Source: Xanthostigma xanthostigma (Eukaryota; Arthropoda; Insecta; Raphidioptera; Raphidiidae). From it: 64,000 nucleotides of DNA. The position numbers were made by a program, and so were the translations under genes. The stretch is taken from contig OY754466.1 in NCBI GenBank assembly GCA_963575645.1, forward strand, positions 10,084,001-10,148,000, written 5' to 3'. This document shows, piece after piece, positions 2,350 through 12,535 of this stretch. Numbering within the stretch: position 1 is the first letter of the stretch; the number at the start of each line of letters is the position of its first letter. The notes beneath the pieces were generated by a model. That model was not told the DNA's origin. It searched no databases and saw nothing but the letters and a program-made list of their open reading frames with translations.

Positions 2350-2445
2350 ATATATCTATTAATTAACTATATGAATCATTGCCTATCTACTCAATGTGCG
2401 GTGAGTGAACGCAACAAAGCGTATCGAAAATATATCCGCGTCTCT
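2350..2445 (+). repeat. Host repeat, left part, split by the LTR element
   Basis: Homologous to 46499-46594, including 'AATGTGCGGTGAGTGAA' and 'GTATCGAAAATATATC'. The right part continues at 10034. The LTR element inserted between the two after the last shared bases, CTCT. Confidence 0.85.
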
Positions 2446-4211
2446 TGTAACGTTCCCCGTTGGCCCTTACGCCGTGTTGATAAGGACGAAACGCTACTTC
2501 TTCCTGAACAAATACCAACGCTATTGTTGATATCTGTAGAGGGCAAAATCTTTAATTATTTTCCAAAAAATGTATTTCTTTTCTTTTTTTTACATCAAAA
2601 ACAACATTACTTTTAAATTCAAATTTTATTCAATCAAAATGTAATTTAAATCAATCTTATTTATTTCACTTAAAACTAACTTAGCCTAAAATTAACTTTA
2701 ACTTTTTTAACTTTTATTTTCAAAAATGATTTTACAATTTATTATATTTCAAATTTTACTTTAATAGTTTCATAAATTCAAATTATTTCTTAACTTTGCT
2801 TATTTCAAATTATCTTCCAATTTACATATTATATGTCTTTATAATTCAATTTATCTTATAATTTTTCATTTAATATTTAATTAATCAAAATATGACTTTA
2901 TTTTTTAAAGTAATTTATATACCTCCTCGTTACCTTCGGACTTTGCTAAATTTTTCTATTATATCATTATTTCTATTCGATGTGACGCGTTCTCTCTCAT
3001 TCATTCATTTTAACTTTTATACCGTTTTTATATCTTCATAATTTCTGTAGTTGCCCGATCTTTGCGGGTCTACAATAATTAATATACCTTTTTTAATACT
3101 TTATAATTTTTCTCATAATTTCATCATAATCATTTTTTATAATTGCCCGTCGTTGCGGGTCGACAATTATATATTTTTAATACCTCATAATTTTTATCAT
3201 TCATTCTTAATTTTTAGATCAAACGCATTGTTTCTTATATTAATACTTCAATTCTACAAATATTGAGCAAAGTTCGACTGCAAGAGGAAAAGTATATGGC
3301 AAACTTCTCTAAACATTATCTTATTCTTTTCAATATAAATATTTGCAAAGTATTGAATCTTTTTGAATTTACTATAAACAAAATTTATCATATCAAAAAA
3401 AAAAATGAAAATTAATATTCTTTAATTATTTGAAATCAAAATTATTTTTTATATTCAATTTAATGTGGAGATATATTTTGAACTCCATTTTTTATATTTA
3501 ATGTATTTACAACTTACAACTAATACTTAATATGTATATTTAAATCGTTTATTTTATTATTTACAACCCCTTTTTGGGTATATCTATTTATTTACATTGA
3601 CACGTTAATATTGGATAGAGAGAAACCATCGAACCAATATTAACGGTATTATTTATTATATTATATAAGGCATTTTTTGATCAATTGATTTTATTTTTTG
3701 TGCTCTCTTTTCCTAATGTATTTTTATTTAATTAAAAATGTTATCCAAAGTTTTATTACCTCATGATGACCAGAAAACTCCGTTCTCCAATTAAGATTGA
3801 TGAAATAAAGTAGGTAACGAAAAAGTGAAGATTTACTGATTAGCAAAAATTGAATTGTAAACTTATCGCGTGTACTTCTTTCTAAAGTTCGCAAGCAAGA
3901 GAGACTCTTATCATATTTTAGATTTCAAAAATGCTATCAATGACGGCGTTATTTCGCCCCACCTAATCTTGATTTACCAATCAGTGCGATCGAAATTTTC
4001 AAGTTTACAGCAATATCAATCAGAATCAAACTTAGATAACATCTTTTTGAAAAGTACCGTGTGTTCATAAATGTAATTAGATTTAATAGCGTTTTGCGTT
4101 TAAGATACTGAATGGTCAGAAATAAGTGAATTTAATTAATTAATATCATTTTATGTTTCGATTACTCAAAATAATGATTGGGGACAACGCCTGTAATGTT
4201 GTCACATTACA
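2446..4211 (-). repeat. 3' LTR of the gag-only element
   Basis: Identical in my reading to 8268-10033 at an offset of 5,822. On the element's strand it starts TGTAATGTGACAACATTACA, itself an inverted repeat, and ends GGGGAACGTTACA. It contains a long hairpin at 3604-3644 and twin hairpins at 3051-3075 and 3139-3170 with CCCG/CGGG stems. Open frames inside it (71 and 66 aa) recur in both LTRs only because the LTRs are copies, and they look non-coding. Confidence 0.93.
3604..3644 (-). promoter_or_regulatory. LTR hairpin with the leader-type loop
   Basis: Arms 3604-3619 and 3629-3644 pair at 14 of 16 positions around the 9-nt loop GAGAAACCA (plus strand), which matches the leader loop consensus. 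The other LTR has the identical structure at 9426-9466. Its place in the transcript (R, U5 or U3) is not known. Confidence 0.7.
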
Positions 4212-4215
4212 GTTA

Positions 4216-4225
4216 CCCCCCTCCC
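4216..4225 (-). promoter_or_regulatory. Polypurine tract
   Basis: On the element's strand GGGAGGGGGG lies four bases upstream of the 3' LTR, the expected place for the primer of plus-strand DNA synthesis. Confidence 0.8.
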
Positions 4226-4455
4226 GAGAAAACAAATTTTGTGAAAATAAATGTGAAGCATTTCATTTTCATCATAAATTTGGTATTAAATTCTGATTTT
4301 GGAAAAAAGAACAACAAAATATTTTTATAAATGACATAAAAAAAATTATATTTACATTTATATACCTTGACTGGTTTCGTTCAGTTTTCATCACTCTCAT
4401 GTCCATCGGTTATGCTAATGTCGTTATCACTAAAAGAAAAATCAATTATACCTTT

Positions 4456-5421
4456 TTAGACATCTTTGAGACGGTGATTGTGGTCGGCGGTTAAGTTCCG
4501 ATACTTCTTCAAGTGAATTATTTTGGGTGTGTTGTTCGTCTGGTGATGTTTGCCTGTTTTAGGATATACTCGCATACGAGCATTATTACGTCTTGTCGTC
4601 TTAACTCCATGTGGTTCGTGTCGCTTTCTTGGATTATCTGTACGATTCTTCATTCGAGGTTGTGGTTGAATTCTTCGATTTCTTAAGTCGAGTTTTGTTC
4701 TCAGCGGAAATTTGAGAAATGATTCGTGGATGATTAACGGTTTTGTTTCGTCGATGGTTAATGGCTTTATTTCGTCGATGGTTAATGGCTTTACTTCTTC
4801 GATGGTCAATTCAATTGGCGGTGCTACAGTTAACTCGTGTGTGGTGCTGTTACTCCAGTTTGTTATTTCTCTGCGAATTGGTCTTCTTGGGAAGTCTGTA
4901 CAAGCTTTAAAGTTCGCGAGAAAGCTGTTCCTAAGTAATACGTTGACATATAAATCGGACATGATATAAGCCATTATTTCAAATTGAAAACCTTGGATAA
5001 TCGCACTTGTTATCGTAGCGTGAAGAATTGGTTTGCATTTTCTCTCGTAAATCGTCAATTTGTCAAATTTACTTTGTTTTCTTCTGTTTGCTGTGATTAG
5101 TTTTAACGCAGTTGTTGATAGCGCCGGTAGAAGTTGTTTCGCTTCATTGTTGGTTTTCTGATAATTGGTTTCGGATATGACGGTGATTTTTGGTTTGGAC
5201 TCTACGATGGTGAATTCACATTCTTGTTGTCTGAGCAATAATATGTCTGGTATGACTGAAATAGTTTTTTGGCTTCTTGGATATGCTTCTTTTCTTAAAT
5301 CTTCATTGATATTGTTGTGGAAGATACTGTGGCTATTACGTGCATGTGGACTCTGTTTATAGTTCTTCTTCTCGCCAACCTTCCCCAGAGTTAGGATGGT
5401 TGTCGATTGGAGTTTTCCGAA
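4456..5421 (-). CDS. Second frame: degenerate protease-like protein
   Basis: An open frame of about 321 codons lies in the -1 phase relative to gag and overlaps its last 31 bases. A suggested start at 5238 is a TTG, so the frame probably opens by -1 frameshifting. A G-GAA-AAC heptamer sits in the overlap at 5412-5418, but it is not a canonical slip site. Mid-protein, 'MSDLYVNVLLRNSFL' resembles the retropepsin flap-to-helix block (ILLG.DFL). The expected catalytic DTG is absent; 'LPALSTTALKLI' sits about where it should be. The C-terminal half has three to four copies of KPLTIDE and then a basic tail. No RT follows: the frame stops 245 bp before the LTR. The protease reading is inference; it may instead be an accessory basic protein. 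Confidence 0.55.
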   Translation of the reverse strand, partial: FGKLQSTTILTLGKVGEKKNYKQSPHARNSHSIFHNNINEDLRKEAYPRSQKTISVIPDILLLRQQECEFTIVESKPKITVISETNYQKTNNEAKQLLPALSTTALKLITANRRKQSKFDKLTIYERKCKPILHATITSAIIQGFQFEIMAYIMSDLYVNVLLRNSFLANFKACTDFPRRPIRREITNWSNSTTHELTVAPPIELTIEEVKPLTIDEIKPLTIDETKPLIIHESFLKFPLRTKLDLRNRRIQPQPRMKNRTDNPRKRHEPHGVKTTRRNNARMRVYPKTGKHHQTNNTPKIIHLKKYRNLTADHNHRLKDV

Positions 5422-6854
5422 CTATCTTCATTCGGTCGACGTTGATTGTTTATATTTTGTCTTGACGGTCCCGTGTTATAATTTCGGTTTTCGTTGTCAT
5501 TTCGACGCCAATTTGTATTTCGGTCGTTGTGATAATTTCGGTCTTGCTCCCTCTGTTGAAAATTTGAGTTGTTGTTTGGTCGTGATATATTTGGATTGTT
5601 GGTATCCGGAATACCGATACCTCTTGCTTGTCCATTGTTGGAGATGTTATCCATTATGGTTAATGTTTCCAGCATATCGAGCATAGTTGTGGGTCGTGAT
5701 AAAGCAATTTGTTGTTGCCACGGATGTGGGAAATGCCTCATGACACTTTCTATTAAGTATTCGGTAGATATTGGTGTATCCAAATACTTTGTTCGTTCCA
5801 CCCAGTACAGGAAATGTTGCGTAAAATTCCCATACCGAGGGTTGAATCTTGCCGGAGATGATAAATTCCACAATATTTTGGATTGAATGTTGTGCGACCA
5901 AAATTGTTTCTTGAATTGTTTTTCGAATGTTTCCCAATCCACTAGGAGTTCTTCTATGGAGCCAAACCAACGGAATGCGGTACCTCTCAAATACTTCTTT
6001 AAATTTTCGTGTAGGACTTGAGTGTTTCGTTGCTGTTTAGGTCCCATAATTTTCTTTAATTGATTTAGAAATTCCACTGGGTGTATTCTGTCTCTTTCGC
6101 CGTAGAATGGTTCCAGGTCAATAGGTCTGGCATTTTCATGATTGTGGGCATGACATGGTTCCCCTGTGATGTTGAGGTTTTGAATTTTTTCTTCCATTCT
6201 ATTTTCTAAGTCTTGGGTTTGCTCGCTGATATCTTTTCGTAGTGTTTCCGTTTTGTCTTCGATTGTTTTTTCTAATACTTGCGTGCGGTCGTTTATTGTT
6301 TCTTCAAATACCTTAGTCCGGTCTTCAATTTCTTGTACTTGCTGGGTTATGTGATGTTCCAGTAGATCTTGCCTTCGCTCGACGACCGTTATTTTCTTGT
6401 CCAGTTCATTTTGTCTTTCGGATAATTGAACATGGATTTCGTTTATCTTCGTGTCTAAAGTTTCGGTGATTCCTTCTTTTACTTGATGGATATCTTCTTT
6501 TATGTTGTGCGTATTAGCGGTCATTTTGTTTTCCAAATTTAATAGGGTAGCGGCGTTACGTTTTTCAAATTTTTCTAATCTGTCCATCATTATAAATATC
6601 AGTTCGTCCCTAGGATCTGGTTGTCGTTCAGGATTTTCTGGTTTCTTTTGCTCTGGCGTTATTGCTAAATCAGGCATGTCGAAACTAATCCGGGTAGACT
6701 CGGTATTAGTTCCGTCTGACTCGTCCGCTTTCTTAATTTCTATTATTTCGTGTGCATCTGTGTTGTCTGGTTTTGTTTCCGGTACTTCATTGCTTTCCGG
6801 TATTGGTTCCAAACCCGGAGTTAAATCCGAAAAATCGGTCGATGCGTCGTCCAT
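5391..6854 (-). CDS. gag: Gag polyprotein of the LTR element
   Basis: A 487-residue structural protein that should assemble the particle packaging the element RNA in the cytoplasm. It starts at a true ATG (6854). Residues about 1-80 are acidic and polar. About 85-225 is heptad-rich and probably coiled coil (repeats such as 'VLEKTIEDKTETLRKD'). About 245-400 matches the retrotransposon gag/capsid pattern: 'LEPFYGERDRIHPVEFLNQL', then 'LRGTAFRWFGS' and 'WETFEKQFKKQFW'. The last 70 residues are rich in Asn and Arg with no CCHC zinc knuckle, so RNA binding may use this basic tail. The frame is uninterrupted, consistent with a young insertion. It is preceded by an unusually long leader of about 1.4 kb carrying the hairpin array. 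Confidence 0.88.
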   Translation of the reverse strand: MDDASTDFSDLTPGLEPIPESNEVPETKPDNTDAHEIIEIKKADESDGTNTESTRISFDMPDLAITPEQKKPENPERQPDPRDELIFIMMDRLEKFEKRNAATLLNLENKMTANTHNIKEDIHQVKEGITETLDTKINEIHVQLSERQNELDKKITVVERRQDLLEHHITQQVQEIEDRTKVFEETINDRTQVLEKTIEDKTETLRKDISEQTQDLENRMEEKIQNLNITGEPCHAHNHENARPIDLEPFYGERDRIHPVEFLNQLKKIMGPKQQRNTQVLHENLKKYLRGTAFRWFGSIEELLVDWETFEKQFKKQFWSHNIQSKILWNLSSPARFNPRYGNFTQHFLYWVERTKYLDTPISTEYLIESVMRHFPHPWQQQIALSRPTTMLDMLETLTIMDNISNNGQARGIGIPDTNNPNISRPNNNSNFQQREQDRNYHNDRNTNWRRNDNENRNYNTGPSRQNINNQRRPNEDSSENSNRQPS

Positions 6855-7022
6855 TGTTATATATTTGATTATCTAGTTCGACTTATTACTTTTATTTAAT
6901 TTGTTTTCAAATTAATTTTTTATTGTTACAGTTTATTAATTTGTGACGTTATTTGTTATTTAATTCTATTTATTTAATATTTATTTATTTACGCTTATTA
7001 TTAGCGAGACAATCACAATCTT

Positions 7023-7911
7023 ATATCAGAGAAAAACCATCCAATATTCAATTGCTAACCCCAAACTATTTTACAATCTTGTATCAAAGAAAAACCGCTC
7101 AATACTTAATCATAAAACAGCGTAGGACAATCTCAAATAATAAATGTTATTTTAATTATTATAACAAATTGTTTAGTTTACTTGTTAATAGTCGATACTA
7201 TTGCTTTTGTCTAATCCGGTAATATTTAATTATTTATTTGTTTACTTGTTCGATTCTACAATCTTTGTTGAAGAAAAACCAGTCAACATCAATTGTGTAT
7301 TTGTCGTTAATTGTTAATAATAATTAATTTATAATTAATCAATCGAAGTTTACTTTTTAGAGTATTAGAGAAAAAACCGTTAGTTTTTTATTATTCTTTA
7401 TTTATAACTATCGTATTAGAGATAAACCGTCTAATAGATAAATTCAATTTGTTTAATTTTATTTATTATAAATCCGTATTAATTTTATCTTGTTATATTA
7501 GAGATAAACCATCTAATAAACAATTGCCGTGAAGTATTATACTTTCGTTAGTTTTTTATTATTAATTTTGTCCAAATTTAGCTTATCAACATTCAAGAAT
7601 TAATATTAGTACTTTTCTTTATTTATTTATAATGATCGTATTAGAGATAAACCGTCTAATAGATAATTTCAATTAGTTTAATTTTATTTATTATAAATCC
7701 GTATTAATTTTATTTTGTTATATTAGAGATAAACCATCTAATATACAATCGTCGTATTATGGTTAATTTATTTTAATTATTATATTAAATATCAAAGAAA
7801 AACCATCTGATAAATAATATTATAGTTTTATTTTAATTATTAATTTAATTAATTTTTTAATTACTTTTATTAATTTGTAATTGTAATATCAGAGAAAAAC
7901 CGTCCAATATT
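7023..7911 (-). promoter_or_regulatory. Array of ~10 hairpins with a shared 9-nt loop in the gag leader
   Basis: Hairpins lie at 7023-7047, 7081-7105, 7266-7288, 7414-7436, 7496-7518, 7639-7661, 7719-7745, 7790-7812 and 7885-7911, with a degenerate one near 7362-7385. On the plus strand the loops read GAAAAACCR or GATAAACCR; in the sense RNA this is YGGUUUWUC. Stems of 6-9 bp differ in sequence but keep pairing: TATTAGA/TCTAATA, TGTTGA/TCAACA, and TATC..GATA replacing TATT..AATA. All transition-type mismatches on the plus strand are A:C, which become G:U pairs in the minus-strand RNA. Two of the hairpins arose by duplication of a ~135-bp block (7391-7524 and 7613-7750). Function is unknown; packaging or a protein-binding platform is plausible. 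Confidence 0.75.
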
Positions 7912-8246
7912 CAATTGTTTTAACTACCTACTAATATAACTTAACAGAAAAATTTTCAAAAATATTTTAATTTCAAATAATATTCAAATAATATTTGCAG
8001 TTTCATTGCACTGCTGTATCAAAAATTCAATCTATTCAGTGTAAAATAATGTCGTTTTGATGCAATGTTAGAACAACTTTTTAGCTTGCATAATTCCGTC
8101 AATGACAAGTTTTTGAATAATAGTCGAATGCACGATGCTATCCCGTTACGTGTTTATCGACTTAGAATAATTTTTATGTTAATTTACAAACTTTTTGAAA
8201 ATTTTATTAAAACTTTGCAAATTCCCCCTGTGCAAAAAATGACAGG

Positions 8247-8264
8247 GTCCTGTCACGGTCGCCA
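8247..8264 (-). promoter_or_regulatory. tRNA-Arg primer binding site
   Basis: Three bases inside the 5' LTR, the element's strand reads TGGCGACCGTGACAGGAC. The plus strand equals the 3' end of an insect tRNA-Arg(UCG) including CCA, as I recall it, over 18 nt. tRNA-Arg priming is known for the mdg1/412 group of Ty3/gypsy elements. Confidence 0.85.
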
Positions 8265-8267
8265 ATT

Positions 8268-10033
8268 TGTAACGTTCCCCGTTGGCCCTTACGCCGTGTT
8301 GATAAGGACGAAACGCTACTTCTTCCTGAACAAATACCAACGCTATTGTTGATATCTGTAGAGGGCAAAATCTTTAATTATTTTCCAAAAAATGTATTTC
8401 TTTTCTTTTTTTTACATCAAAAACAACATTACTTTTAAATTCAAATTTTATTCAATCAAAATGTAATTTAAATCAATCTTATTTATTTCACTTAAAACTA
8501 ACTTAGCCTAAAATTAACTTTAACTTTTTTAACTTTTATTTTCAAAAATGATTTTACAATTTATTATATTTCAAATTTTACTTTAATAGTTTCATAAATT
8601 CAAATTATTTCTTAACTTTGCTTATTTCAAATTATCTTCCAATTTACATATTATATGTCTTTATAATTCAATTTATCTTATAATTTTTCATTTAATATTT
8701 AATTAATCAAAATATGACTTTATTTTTTAAAGTAATTTATATACCTCCTCGTTACCTTCGGACTTTGCTAAATTTTTCTATTATATCATTATTTCTATTC
8801 GATGTGACGCGTTCTCTCTCATTCATTCATTTTAACTTTTATACCGTTTTTATATCTTCATAATTTCTGTAGTTGCCCGATCTTTGCGGGTCTACAATAA
8901 TTAATATACCTTTTTTAATACTTTATAATTTTTCTCATAATTTCATCATAATCATTTTTTATAATTGCCCGTCGTTGCGGGTCGACAATTATATATTTTT
9001 AATACCTCATAATTTTTATCATTCATTCTTAATTTTTAGATCAAACGCATTGTTTCTTATATTAATACTTCAATTCTACAAATATTGAGCAAAGTTCGAC
9101 TGCAAGAGGAAAAGTATATGGCAAACTTCTCTAAACATTATCTTATTCTTTTCAATATAAATATTTGCAAAGTATTGAATCTTTTTGAATTTACTATAAA
9201 CAAAATTTATCATATCAAAAAAAAAAATGAAAATTAATATTCTTTAATTATTTGAAATCAAAATTATTTTTTATATTCAATTTAATGTGGAGATATATTT
9301 TGAACTCCATTTTTTATATTTAATGTATTTACAACTTACAACTAATACTTAATATGTATATTTAAATCGTTTATTTTATTATTTACAACCCCTTTTTGGG
9401 TATATCTATTTATTTACATTGACACGTTAATATTGGATAGAGAGAAACCATCGAACCAATATTAACGGTATTATTTATTATATTATATAAGGCATTTTTT
9501 GATCAATTGATTTTATTTTTTGTGCTCTCTTTTCCTAATGTATTTTTATTTAATTAAAAATGTTATCCAAAGTTTTATTACCTCATGATGACCAGAAAAC
9601 TCCGTTCTCCAATTAAGATTGATGAAATAAAGTAGGTAACGAAAAAGTGAAGATTTACTGATTAGCAAAAATTGAATTGTAAACTTATCGCGTGTACTTC
9701 TTTCTAAAGTTCGCAAGCAAGAGAGACTCTTATCATATTTTAGATTTCAAAAATGCTATCAATGACGGCGTTATTTCGCCCCACCTAATCTTGATTTACC
9801 AATCAGTGCGATCGAAATTTTCAAGTTTACAGCAATATCAATCAGAATCAAACTTAGATAACATCTTTTTGAAAAGTACCGTGTGTTCATAAATGTAATT
9901 AGATTTAATAGCGTTTTGCGTTTAAGATACTGAATGGTCAGAAATAAGTGAATTTAATTAATTAATATCATTTTATGTTTCGATTACTCAAAATAATGAT
10001 TGGGGACAACGCCTGTAATGTTGTCACATTACA
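8268..10033 (-). repeat. 5' LTR of the gag-only element
   Basis: Second copy of the 1,766-bp LTR, upstream on the element's strand, and therefore the promoter-bearing copy. Its inner edge is three bases from the primer site. The loop-motif hairpin lies at 9426-9466. Confidence 0.93.
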
Positions 10034-10936: not shown

Positions 10937-11668
<732 letters not shown>

Positions 11669-11676
11669 CCCTTAAG

Positions 11677-12317
11677 AAATTAATGTCATAGCGGTTGTTG
11701 ATTTTCTGTATAAACGAAACGATCGATATTTAATTTTAGTGTATATTCGAATGCAATCTATTCAAATTAACATTTGCAATGAAGTTGAACTGAGTCACGA
11801 GTTCTTTGTATAACTTCTGTATTCATCTAACATCACGGAAGATTCCCAAGTAGGTACATTCTATGTGCTTTTACAATAAGTCTTCGCAATACGCGGGGAA
11901 TTCGATGTGATTAATTGTTTTCCAGCACAGAGACTGTAGATTATAGACGCTCGACAACTGAGATCAATAGCGTTTTTTACGGTAATTACTGCCCCGCAAG
12001 AATCGACTAAAGTATAGCGATGTTCAACATGAAACGTAAGAACTGCATGCGGCACGCATAAACATTTTTCGCATCCTTTTTAGCTTAAAAACTTTTCATA
12101 ATTAATCGAATAAATAGTTGTTGAGATTAAATTCATACTATAATATTTTAGACAGAGAAAATGTCTTTGTTTGTTTGTTTGAAAAGGATAATCTCTGGAT
12201 CTACTGGTTGTCAATCTTGAAAATGTTTAAAACATCGGAAACCTTGTATATGTTTATGATTTTTGTTGTCGAACGTCTATAATTCACAATATCTATTTAT
12301 GGAAAACTTATACCTAA
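11677..12317. other. No feature seen
   Basis: AT-rich and unique-looking. No supported gene. Confidence 0.45.
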
Positions 12318-12535
12318 CGTGCGCTCGTCGATGATTGGCCGTGATCGCCCGTTGCCTTTGTTACTTGTCGCTTTCCTGCTTTAAAGTACAGTCGAGTACG
12401 CTATTGTCAAGTTGTCATTGTTAATTTAGTTTTGTTGAGCTGCGTGTTTGTAGTTTTTCAACAGACTGTACAAGCGCAAGCCCGCATTCGCATTTCACTT
12501 CCGGGTCTTTTAGATTCGTGGCGCGTATTGTACTT
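12318..12535 (+). repeat. Partial reverse-oriented copy of the 1551-1872 MITE
   Basis: Shares 'GATTGGCCGTGATCGCC', CTTTCCTGCTTTAAAGTACA and the terminal 'TTAGATTCGTGGCGCGTATT' with the copy at 1.55-1.87 kb. Confidence 0.75.

Follow-up and report, generated by a model that had tools for sequence, protein, structure and literature searches.

The untranslated leader of an LTR retrotransposon in the genome of Xanthostigma xanthostigma carries nine stem-loops and one decayed copy (7023-7911, minus strand), all located between the primer site and gag. We propose, with moderate confidence and on sequence evidence, that this array offers multivalent binding sites in RNA, with the element's own Gag as the likeliest partner and packaging as the probable role. 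The hairpins, the covariation of their stems, their low diversity, and the change of their loop from one family to another were observed by computation. The window, i.e., the whole stretch of DNA analysed, comprises 64,000 nucleotides of contig OY754466.1; all positions refer to it, and the sense strand of the element is its minus strand. An earlier note on the window had described nine clear stem-loops and a degenerate one, and the same set was found here: nine loop starts were located, and the tenth hairpin was decayed.

The array lies in an LTR element that encodes Gag

The element has two LTRs, a flanking 4-nt repeat on both sides (AGAG, the target-site duplication), a primer site, and a purine tract (Table 1), as expected of an LTR retrotransposon; the reverse transcriptase (RT) and integrase of an autonomous one were not found. 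With TG...CA ends, the 5' LTR spans 8268-10033, and the match at base 8267 is possibly due to chance. Because the two LTRs are identical, the sequence suggests a recent insertion. The primer binding site is presumably tRNA-Arg-like; its TGGCGACCGTGACA recurs in a sister family and in three of four copies of a third family (see below). The search for tRNA genes returned none. A near-palindrome, TGACAGGACCCTGTCA (8240-8255, minus strand), overlaps the primer site and is also present in sister copy L030; it is a candidate dimerisation or primer-access structure. Inverted repeats (88-93%) at 1550-1763 and 12316-12532, about 10.5 kb apart, bracket the element, and a long AAT trinucleotide repeat lies near it (approximately 11255-11410). 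The leader measures approximately 1.4 kb from primer site to gag (1414 nt) and contains nine upstream ATGs.

Table 1. Positions of the element's features in the window
Feature	Position	Strand	Remarks
LTR element as a whole	2445-10033	minus	two LTRs, flanking repeat, primer site, polypurine tract, gag
5' LTR	8267-10033	minus	1767 nt identical to 2445-4211
LTR hairpin	9425-9467	minus	loop TGGTTTCTC; 13 of 16 arm positions pair
Primer binding site	8249-8264	minus	TGGCGACCGTGACAGG; directly inside 5' LTR
Hairpin 7894 (h1)	7886-7910	minus	sister family: stem retained, loop lost
Hairpin 7797 (h2)	7789-7813	minus	outer helix; sister ortholog with loop CGGGTGTCC
Hairpin 7728 (h3)	7720-7744	minus	sister ortholog with loop CGGGTTCCC
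Hairpin 7646	7638-7662	minus	inside 137-bp duplication
Hairpin 7503	7495-7519	minus	inside 137-bp duplication
Hairpin 7421	7413-7437	minus	inside 137-bp duplication
Decayed hairpin	7362-7387	minus	one arm left, partner arm non-complementary; 10-nt loop
Hairpin 7273	7265-7289	minus	stem TGTTGA/TCAACA; outer helix
Hairpin 7089	7081-7105	minus	outer helix
Hairpin 7031	7023-7047	minus	outer helix
gag	5391-6854	minus	ATG at 6852-6854; open frame 5391-6872
ORF2	4456-5421	minus	open frame of 321 codons
Purine tract (polypurine tract)	4216-4225	minus	precedes 3' LTR
3' LTR	2445-4211	minus	identical to 5' LTR over 1767 nt
LTR hairpin, 3' LTR copy	3603-3645	minus	same hairpin as 9425-9467

The gag frame (493 codons, stop to stop) encodes a Ty3-like capsid part followed by an N/R-rich tail, in which no zinc knuckle was seen. 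The Pfam matches of the capsid part, to Ty3_capsid (E 2.9e-4) and to Retrotrans_gag (E 0.095), fall below the curated cut-offs; a search of Gag against PDB gave no meaningful match (E 0.33), and no relative was confirmed in collections of viral contigs and genome contigs. Only two open frames of at least 150 aa are found in the element. The second, ORF2, has no Pfam match; read by eye, it may be a protease relic that lacks the catalytic triplet, followed by a pol tail. A scan of the element's sense strand with RT and protease motif patterns ([FYLM]xDD-type, D[ST]GA) found neither, and this copy thus looks non-autonomous. Two copies of the sister family (L087 2036-2785 and L088 213-1025) have second frames of 249 and 270 codons, the sole sense-strand frames of at least 90 aa in the 3 kb 3' of gag, and the C-terminus KIIHLKKYxNLTADHNHRLK is near-identical in all three copies. 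Since these two sister copies likewise show just a short second frame after gag, the missing RT may be a trait of the whole lineage rather than of one damaged copy, and ORF2, open without RT in three copies, possibly keeps some role.

Nine hairpins share one loop

Each hairpin is named after the plus-strand start of its loop (Table 1). On the sense strand, the loop of all nine reads YGGTTTWTC, and the pattern YGGTTTNTC occurs nine times in the 1414-nt leader on that strand, compared with 0.017 occurrences expected from shuffles, in agreement with the common 9-nt loop reported earlier. In four hairpins, an outer helix lies past a 2x2 internal loop (Table 1). The decayed copy retains the plus-strand left half GTATTAGAG, and its best fold is a different one. 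A duplication that had been put at about 135 bp measures 137 bp (7394-7530 and 7619-7755, 93% identity); within this pair alone, 1 of 50 positions changed in the hairpins versus 8 of 87 outside, an excess that is not significant (P 0.15).

Rfam gave no match in the window at the gathering score, and two sub-threshold matches in 6853-10033 (E 0.88 and 1.2). The hairpin pattern was met in 12 stretches of the viral contig collection, which were taken as chance since each holds one match. The hammerhead core CTGATGA, considered in view of the retrozyme idea (PMC7761336, available in part), is absent from both strands. Loop-loop or long-range pairing was also examined. Along its sense strand, the element has no 8-nt complement to the loop (GA[AT]AAACC) and four 7-nt partial complements, at 6774, 5491, 5157, and 4744; kissing of the loop with an antisense site is not favoured.

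Stems covary among the paralogous hairpins

Across the nine hairpins, 62 of the 63 cells of the inner seven pairs hold a standard pair, with eight G:U and no A:C on the sense strand. When the arms were exchanged among hairpins, the mean number of standard pairs was 58.7 and the maximum 62, the number observed. In an alignment of the nine hairpins (eight of them distinct), five of ten pairs changed on both sides, compared with 2.1 in shuffles (1 of 500 was as high) and 0-1 in slid structures. Tree simulations that started from paired ancestors and let change go unconstrained gave P values of 0.00035-0.0008 for the double changes, 0.008-0.018 for the excess pairing, and 0.008-0.020 for at least eight G:U with no A:C. 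With a randomly resolved root, the double changes (P 0.00015) and the excess pairing (P 0.0003) stood out again, with no excess of G:U over A:C (P 0.66). The view that the stems differ in sequence yet keep pairing is thus upheld by these counts.

The same cannot be said in full of the claim that eight mismatches are all G:U in the minus-strand RNA. In the inner seven pairs, the count of eight G:U and no A:C is correct, but six of the eight represent one state common to 7031, 7089, and 7894, so that approximately four independent events are left, and A:C pairs do occur outside the inner stem. Because six of the eight are a single shared state, the strand argument from G:U versus A:C is weaker than it appears.

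The covariation also bears on whether the array is read as DNA, for example, as an insulator or enhancer in which a zinc-finger or other host factor would recognise the inverted repeats as half-sites. Site arrays at this place in insect elements are known, but as DNA elements: the 5' UTR of gypsy contains, within 340 bp, twelve Su(Hw) sites (PMC2374998), and that of copia contains octanucleotide repeats (PMC4717254), according to the parts of these papers that were available. Gypsy, also an insect LTR element, resembles the present case in that its 5' UTR holds an array of about ten like sites within AT-rich DNA; the flanks are AT-rich here as well, and in the LTR a hairpin of similar type neighbours a TATA-like sequence. 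However, the Su(Hw) consensus YRYTGCATAYYY is read as duplex DNA, and the available part of PMC2374998 mentions neither hairpins nor covariation for gypsy; the motif here, YGGTTTWTC, sits in a hairpin and is unlike that consensus when the two are compared as consensus strings. A reading of duplex DNA would leave unexplained that the arms change with pairing kept; the inner stems show G:U and no A:C, and the loop is not symmetric. We therefore regard a DNA-level array as improbable.

Predicted folding points to a structured head

Five of the nine hairpins (7031, 7089, 7273, 7797, and 7894) fold clearly better on the sense strand than on the antisense strand, with energies of -11.1 versus -1.6 for 7031 and -11.8 versus -1.8 for 7089. 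For the TATTAGA hairpins (7421, 7503, 7646, and 7728) and the LTR hairpin described below, the antisense strand folds equally or slightly better, and window folds along the whole leader showed no overall strand difference (-3.13 sense, -3.23 antisense). We then compared each hairpin (41 nt, sense strand) with 500 dinucleotide shuffles of itself. The numbers of shuffles as low were 0 for the LTR hairpin, 5 for 7031, 110 for 7089, 5 for 7273, 37 for 7421, 27 for 7503, 42 for 7646, 13 for 7728, 1 for 7797, and 2 for 7894; taken alone, 7089 folds no better than its shuffles.

In the lowest-energy folds, G2 and C9 pair inside the loop in all nine leader hairpins, and G3 and U8 pair in the five that fold better on the sense strand, this second pair being absent from the other four. 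Where both pairs form, the first loop base is bulged and a four-base loop is left. As far as these predictions go, the head therefore probably has a bulged first base, which is mostly a pyrimidine, followed by two pairs, the first G-C and the second G-U or G-C, that enclose a tetraloop. The operator of the MS2 coat protein consists of a stem, a bulged base on the 5' side that is a purine, two base pairs, and a four-base loop, and this layout is predicted for part of the hairpins here; the bulged base here is mostly a pyrimidine, the proteins are unrelated, and the likeness is one of predicted structure.

When the whole leader is folded with spans of up to 150, the stems of 7031, 7089, 7273, 7421, and 7894 form with a probability of approximately 0.7 or more, unpaired end positions excepted, that of 7797 with approximately 0.45, and those of 7503, 7646, and 7728 with 0.02 or less. 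The last three values probably reflect near-identical arms that are able to pair across hairpins.

The LTRs carry a hairpin with a similar loop

A separate hairpin in both LTRs (loops at 9442 and 3620), missed in the earlier note, has a loop that resembles that of the leader hairpins and is closed by the same GA/TC. It starts approximately 15 nt past TATATAA (9483-9489) and is longer than the leader hairpins. The string GA-YGGTTTNTC-TC occurred in 0 of 2000 shuffled LTRs, and the loop begins with TGGTTT in all nine other copies read; its position 8 is A or G in five of these nine (L079-L083), which breaks the G3-Y8 pair. Copies differ in the inner stem, which has mismatches in some (TTCGA/TCTAT, TTCGA/TCTTA) and is fully formed in others (ATAGA with TCTAT or TTTAT), and A:C mismatches are found in at least two variants. 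As a covariance model of the hairpins gives it just 12.2 bits (E 4.1), we group it with the leader hairpins by its loop motif. The single sister-family LTR region that was read contains no hairpin with the searched loop. Two further, mutually similar hairpins lie in the LTR at approximately 8960-8993 and 8861-8903 (minus strand) and are copied in the 3' LTR; they have GACCCGCAA and CGGGCAA around the loop in common, differ in outer pairing, and are a possible second repeated structure.

Hairpins vary less than the rest of the leader

A search of the 623-Mb host genome with the leader gave at least 34 matches, from which 13 loci of the window's family were used; L025, L026, L027, and L029, which are second pieces of L021, L023, L022, and L028, respectively, are omitted from the diversity set. 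Across the 13 loci, the hairpins have 0.0235 differences per site compared with 0.0568 in the rest of the leader, 2.4 times less, and 12 of 1088 circular shifts of the hairpin mask were as low. Uncompensated drift in the family copies had been named as damaging to the idea of selected hairpins; here, the hairpins proved the more conserved part. Stem differences that keep a standard pair are found at 7031 in L018 and at 7894 in L016, L018, and L024. Exceptions to pairing occur at 7089 in L018, through insertions at 7728 in L014 and L015, and at 7503 and 7728 in the outermost pairs. In this family, loops are more variable than stems (0.034 versus 0.017), and 5 of 11 copies have A as the first base of the 7031 loop.

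The number of hairpins that match the pattern ranges from three to nine per locus, with two or more hairpins lacking at some loci. This variation, together with the duplication of part of the array, is in line with a short palindrome that spread by duplication, selfishly or neutrally and free of any function; to this reading we give almost no credence, since in two families diversity is lower in the hairpins than elsewhere in the leader, and pairing is kept through changes. The capsid stretch (186 aa) is stop-free in all ten window-family matches that cover it fully; two short gag pieces (68 aa, 87%) have two stops each. L014 and L015 (G000 C1:34001333-34008054) have leader copies 99-100% identical to that of the window, in the same orientation and with starts 5793 bases apart, a spacing close to one LTR plus the internal part, as would be seen in a tandem element with a common middle LTR.

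A sister family has fewer hairpins with a different loop

A second search defined a sister family of 16 loci (L043-L058); of its other matches, L072 is taken as a piece of the copy of L053, L059-L071 are assigned to the window's family, and one short match that had no locus was set aside. L044 and L058, which lack the primer-site pattern, are absent from the leader alignment and included in the loop and diversity counts. The sister capsids are 49-53% identical to the window's capsid, and 12 of 13 long matches are stop-free, the remaining one holding one stop. In the nine copies with both ends found, the leader from primer site to gag ATG measures 590-709 nt (approximately 0.6 kb). Three hairpin positions were found in it, the orthologs of h1, h2, and h3, and no others.

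In all 16 copies, the loop CGGGUNNCC replaces YGGUUUNUC in h2 and h3, whose inner stems are TATCAAA/TTTGATA and TATTAGA/TCTAATA, respectively. The deviations amount to one stem base in one copy and the outermost base of h2 in two. Together, h2 and h3 have 0.0027 differences per site compared with 0.0931 around them (16 copies), and 5 of 441 shifts were as low. Position 8 of the loop is C in both hairpins of all copies, and through this difference, which arose from U8 to C8 or in the reverse direction, the possible G3-U8 pair becomes G3-C8. In h1, the stem is present and the loop is T-rich and variable in length. The stems were therefore retained across the family split, and the loop changed similarly in both h2 and h3. 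This joint change, alongside the divergence of Gag, favours a partner encoded by the element.

A third family, with capsids 31-33% identical and a similar primer site, has a leader of approximately 220 nt, and no such hairpin was found in the four copies read. Since the three families differ in state (about ten, three, and none), the array may have arisen after the third family split off, and in the window's family its sites seem to have increased from about three to about ten, loss being the alternative. Upstream of the primer site, three of the four third-family loci (L073 approximately 622-866, L074 approximately 460-817, and L075 approximately 513-871) have repeat units every 113-114 bp or a multiple thereof, which carry a hairpin GAATTCC-AGYTTTACG-GGGATTT.

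The leader lengths bear on a role in translation or RNA processing that needs no dedicated protein, whereby the leader would steer ribosomes (shunt, IRES, or uORF masking) or protect the RNA. The 1.4-kb leader with its upstream ATGs would suit such a role, and in plant pararetroviruses, translation is controlled by long, structured leaders that contain uORFs (PMC5902531, available in part). However, leaders of 0.6 kb in the sister family and 0.2 kb in the third speak against it, and it leaves the nearly invariant head and the coordinated change of that head unexplained; we consider it very improbable.

Discussion

Covariation, low hairpin diversity in two families, and better folding of the sense strand in five of nine hairpins support selection on structure in the element's own transcript, as the earlier note had proposed; the first two also amount to a conserved RNA structure of the kind expected of a packaging signal in a leader. 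We infer that a protein binds these structures, that Gag is the binder, and that packaging is the outcome. The genomic transcript of the element, an LTR retrotransposon that has gag and for which no RT was detected, would then carry repeated cis-acting sites at the RNA level. Each of them would offer a stem of 7-8 bp, variable in sequence and topped by a nearly invariant head, and several copies would give a protein many footholds on one RNA. The likeliest partner would be the element's own Gag, with the array working as a packaging (encapsidation) and assembly-nucleating signal. This reading is favoured by the presence of two families in the same host, each with its own loop type and with diverged capsids, by the position of the array between primer site and gag, where packaging signals lie, and by gag being kept open in both families. 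Several observations count against it: the third family does without the array, which is thus not needed by all relatives; G3-U8 is missing in four of nine folds, and position 8 of the LTR loop is A or G in five of nine copies; loops are more variable than stems in the window's family, and the h1 loop is lost in the sister family; 7503, 7646, and 7728 hardly form in the whole-leader fold; and window folds reveal no leader-wide strand difference.

The sites could instead be read in RNA by a host protein for localisation, translation control, or the export of unspliced RNA from the nucleus. The CTE of MPMV RNA has two like loops. Its binding by Tap/NXF1 provides a precedent (PMC5035971, available in part), the intact hairpins of both families have G-G at positions 2-3 of the loop and U at its position 5, a pattern that one host protein could read, and a K10 localisation element matched at 7305-7345, albeit sub-threshold (E 1.2, far below gathering). 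Nevertheless, two families in one host differ in loop, each being nearly uniform, which a conserved host protein does not obviously demand, and the third family lacks the sites, so that we regard a host partner as rather unlikely.

Returning to Gag as the partner, the leaders of retroviruses and of Ty1 and Ty3 hold a few unlike stem-loops, whereas here nine copies of one hairpin type extend over 0.9 kb and the head is family-specific. They are alike in that the 5' region of the genomic RNA is structured, and in those elements this structure is recognised by Gag; as far as the available parts of the papers go, structured signals are used by the leaders of Ty1 (PMC4974528) and retroviruses (PMC5454406, PMC8096270), and the cis-acting packaging sequences of Ty3 are 'not precisely defined' (PMC11381356). 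The TR-GAG elements of plants, as described in the accessible part of the literature, also have LTRs and gag and no RT, but they are plant elements, whereas the present one has a Ty3-like capsid, a second ORF, and an animal genome as host. The earlier statement that no array of this kind had been described holds in part: in the literature on leaders, hairpins, and packaging, surveyed by titles and abstract starts with little coverage of subscription journals, no repeated covarying hairpin array in such a leader was recognised, but arrays of sites at the DNA level are known, as in gypsy.

More tentatively, and with rather more doubt than belief, we consider that the array may be a dispersed, multi-copy encapsidation code in a non-autonomous lineage: many copies of a bulge-plus-tetraloop operator whose head would change in step at all sites of a family and co-evolve with that family's Gag, whose number would have risen from about three to about ten in one family, and which would perhaps help RNAs without RT to outcompete others for particles. 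RNA selection for the packaging of LTR retrotransposons is imprecisely defined even for Ty3, according to the available part of PMC11381356. Two natural versions of the head in two families of one genome provide a ready swap test of RNA-protein specificity, and the array could show how an element that lacks RT stays mobile through an improved cis signal.
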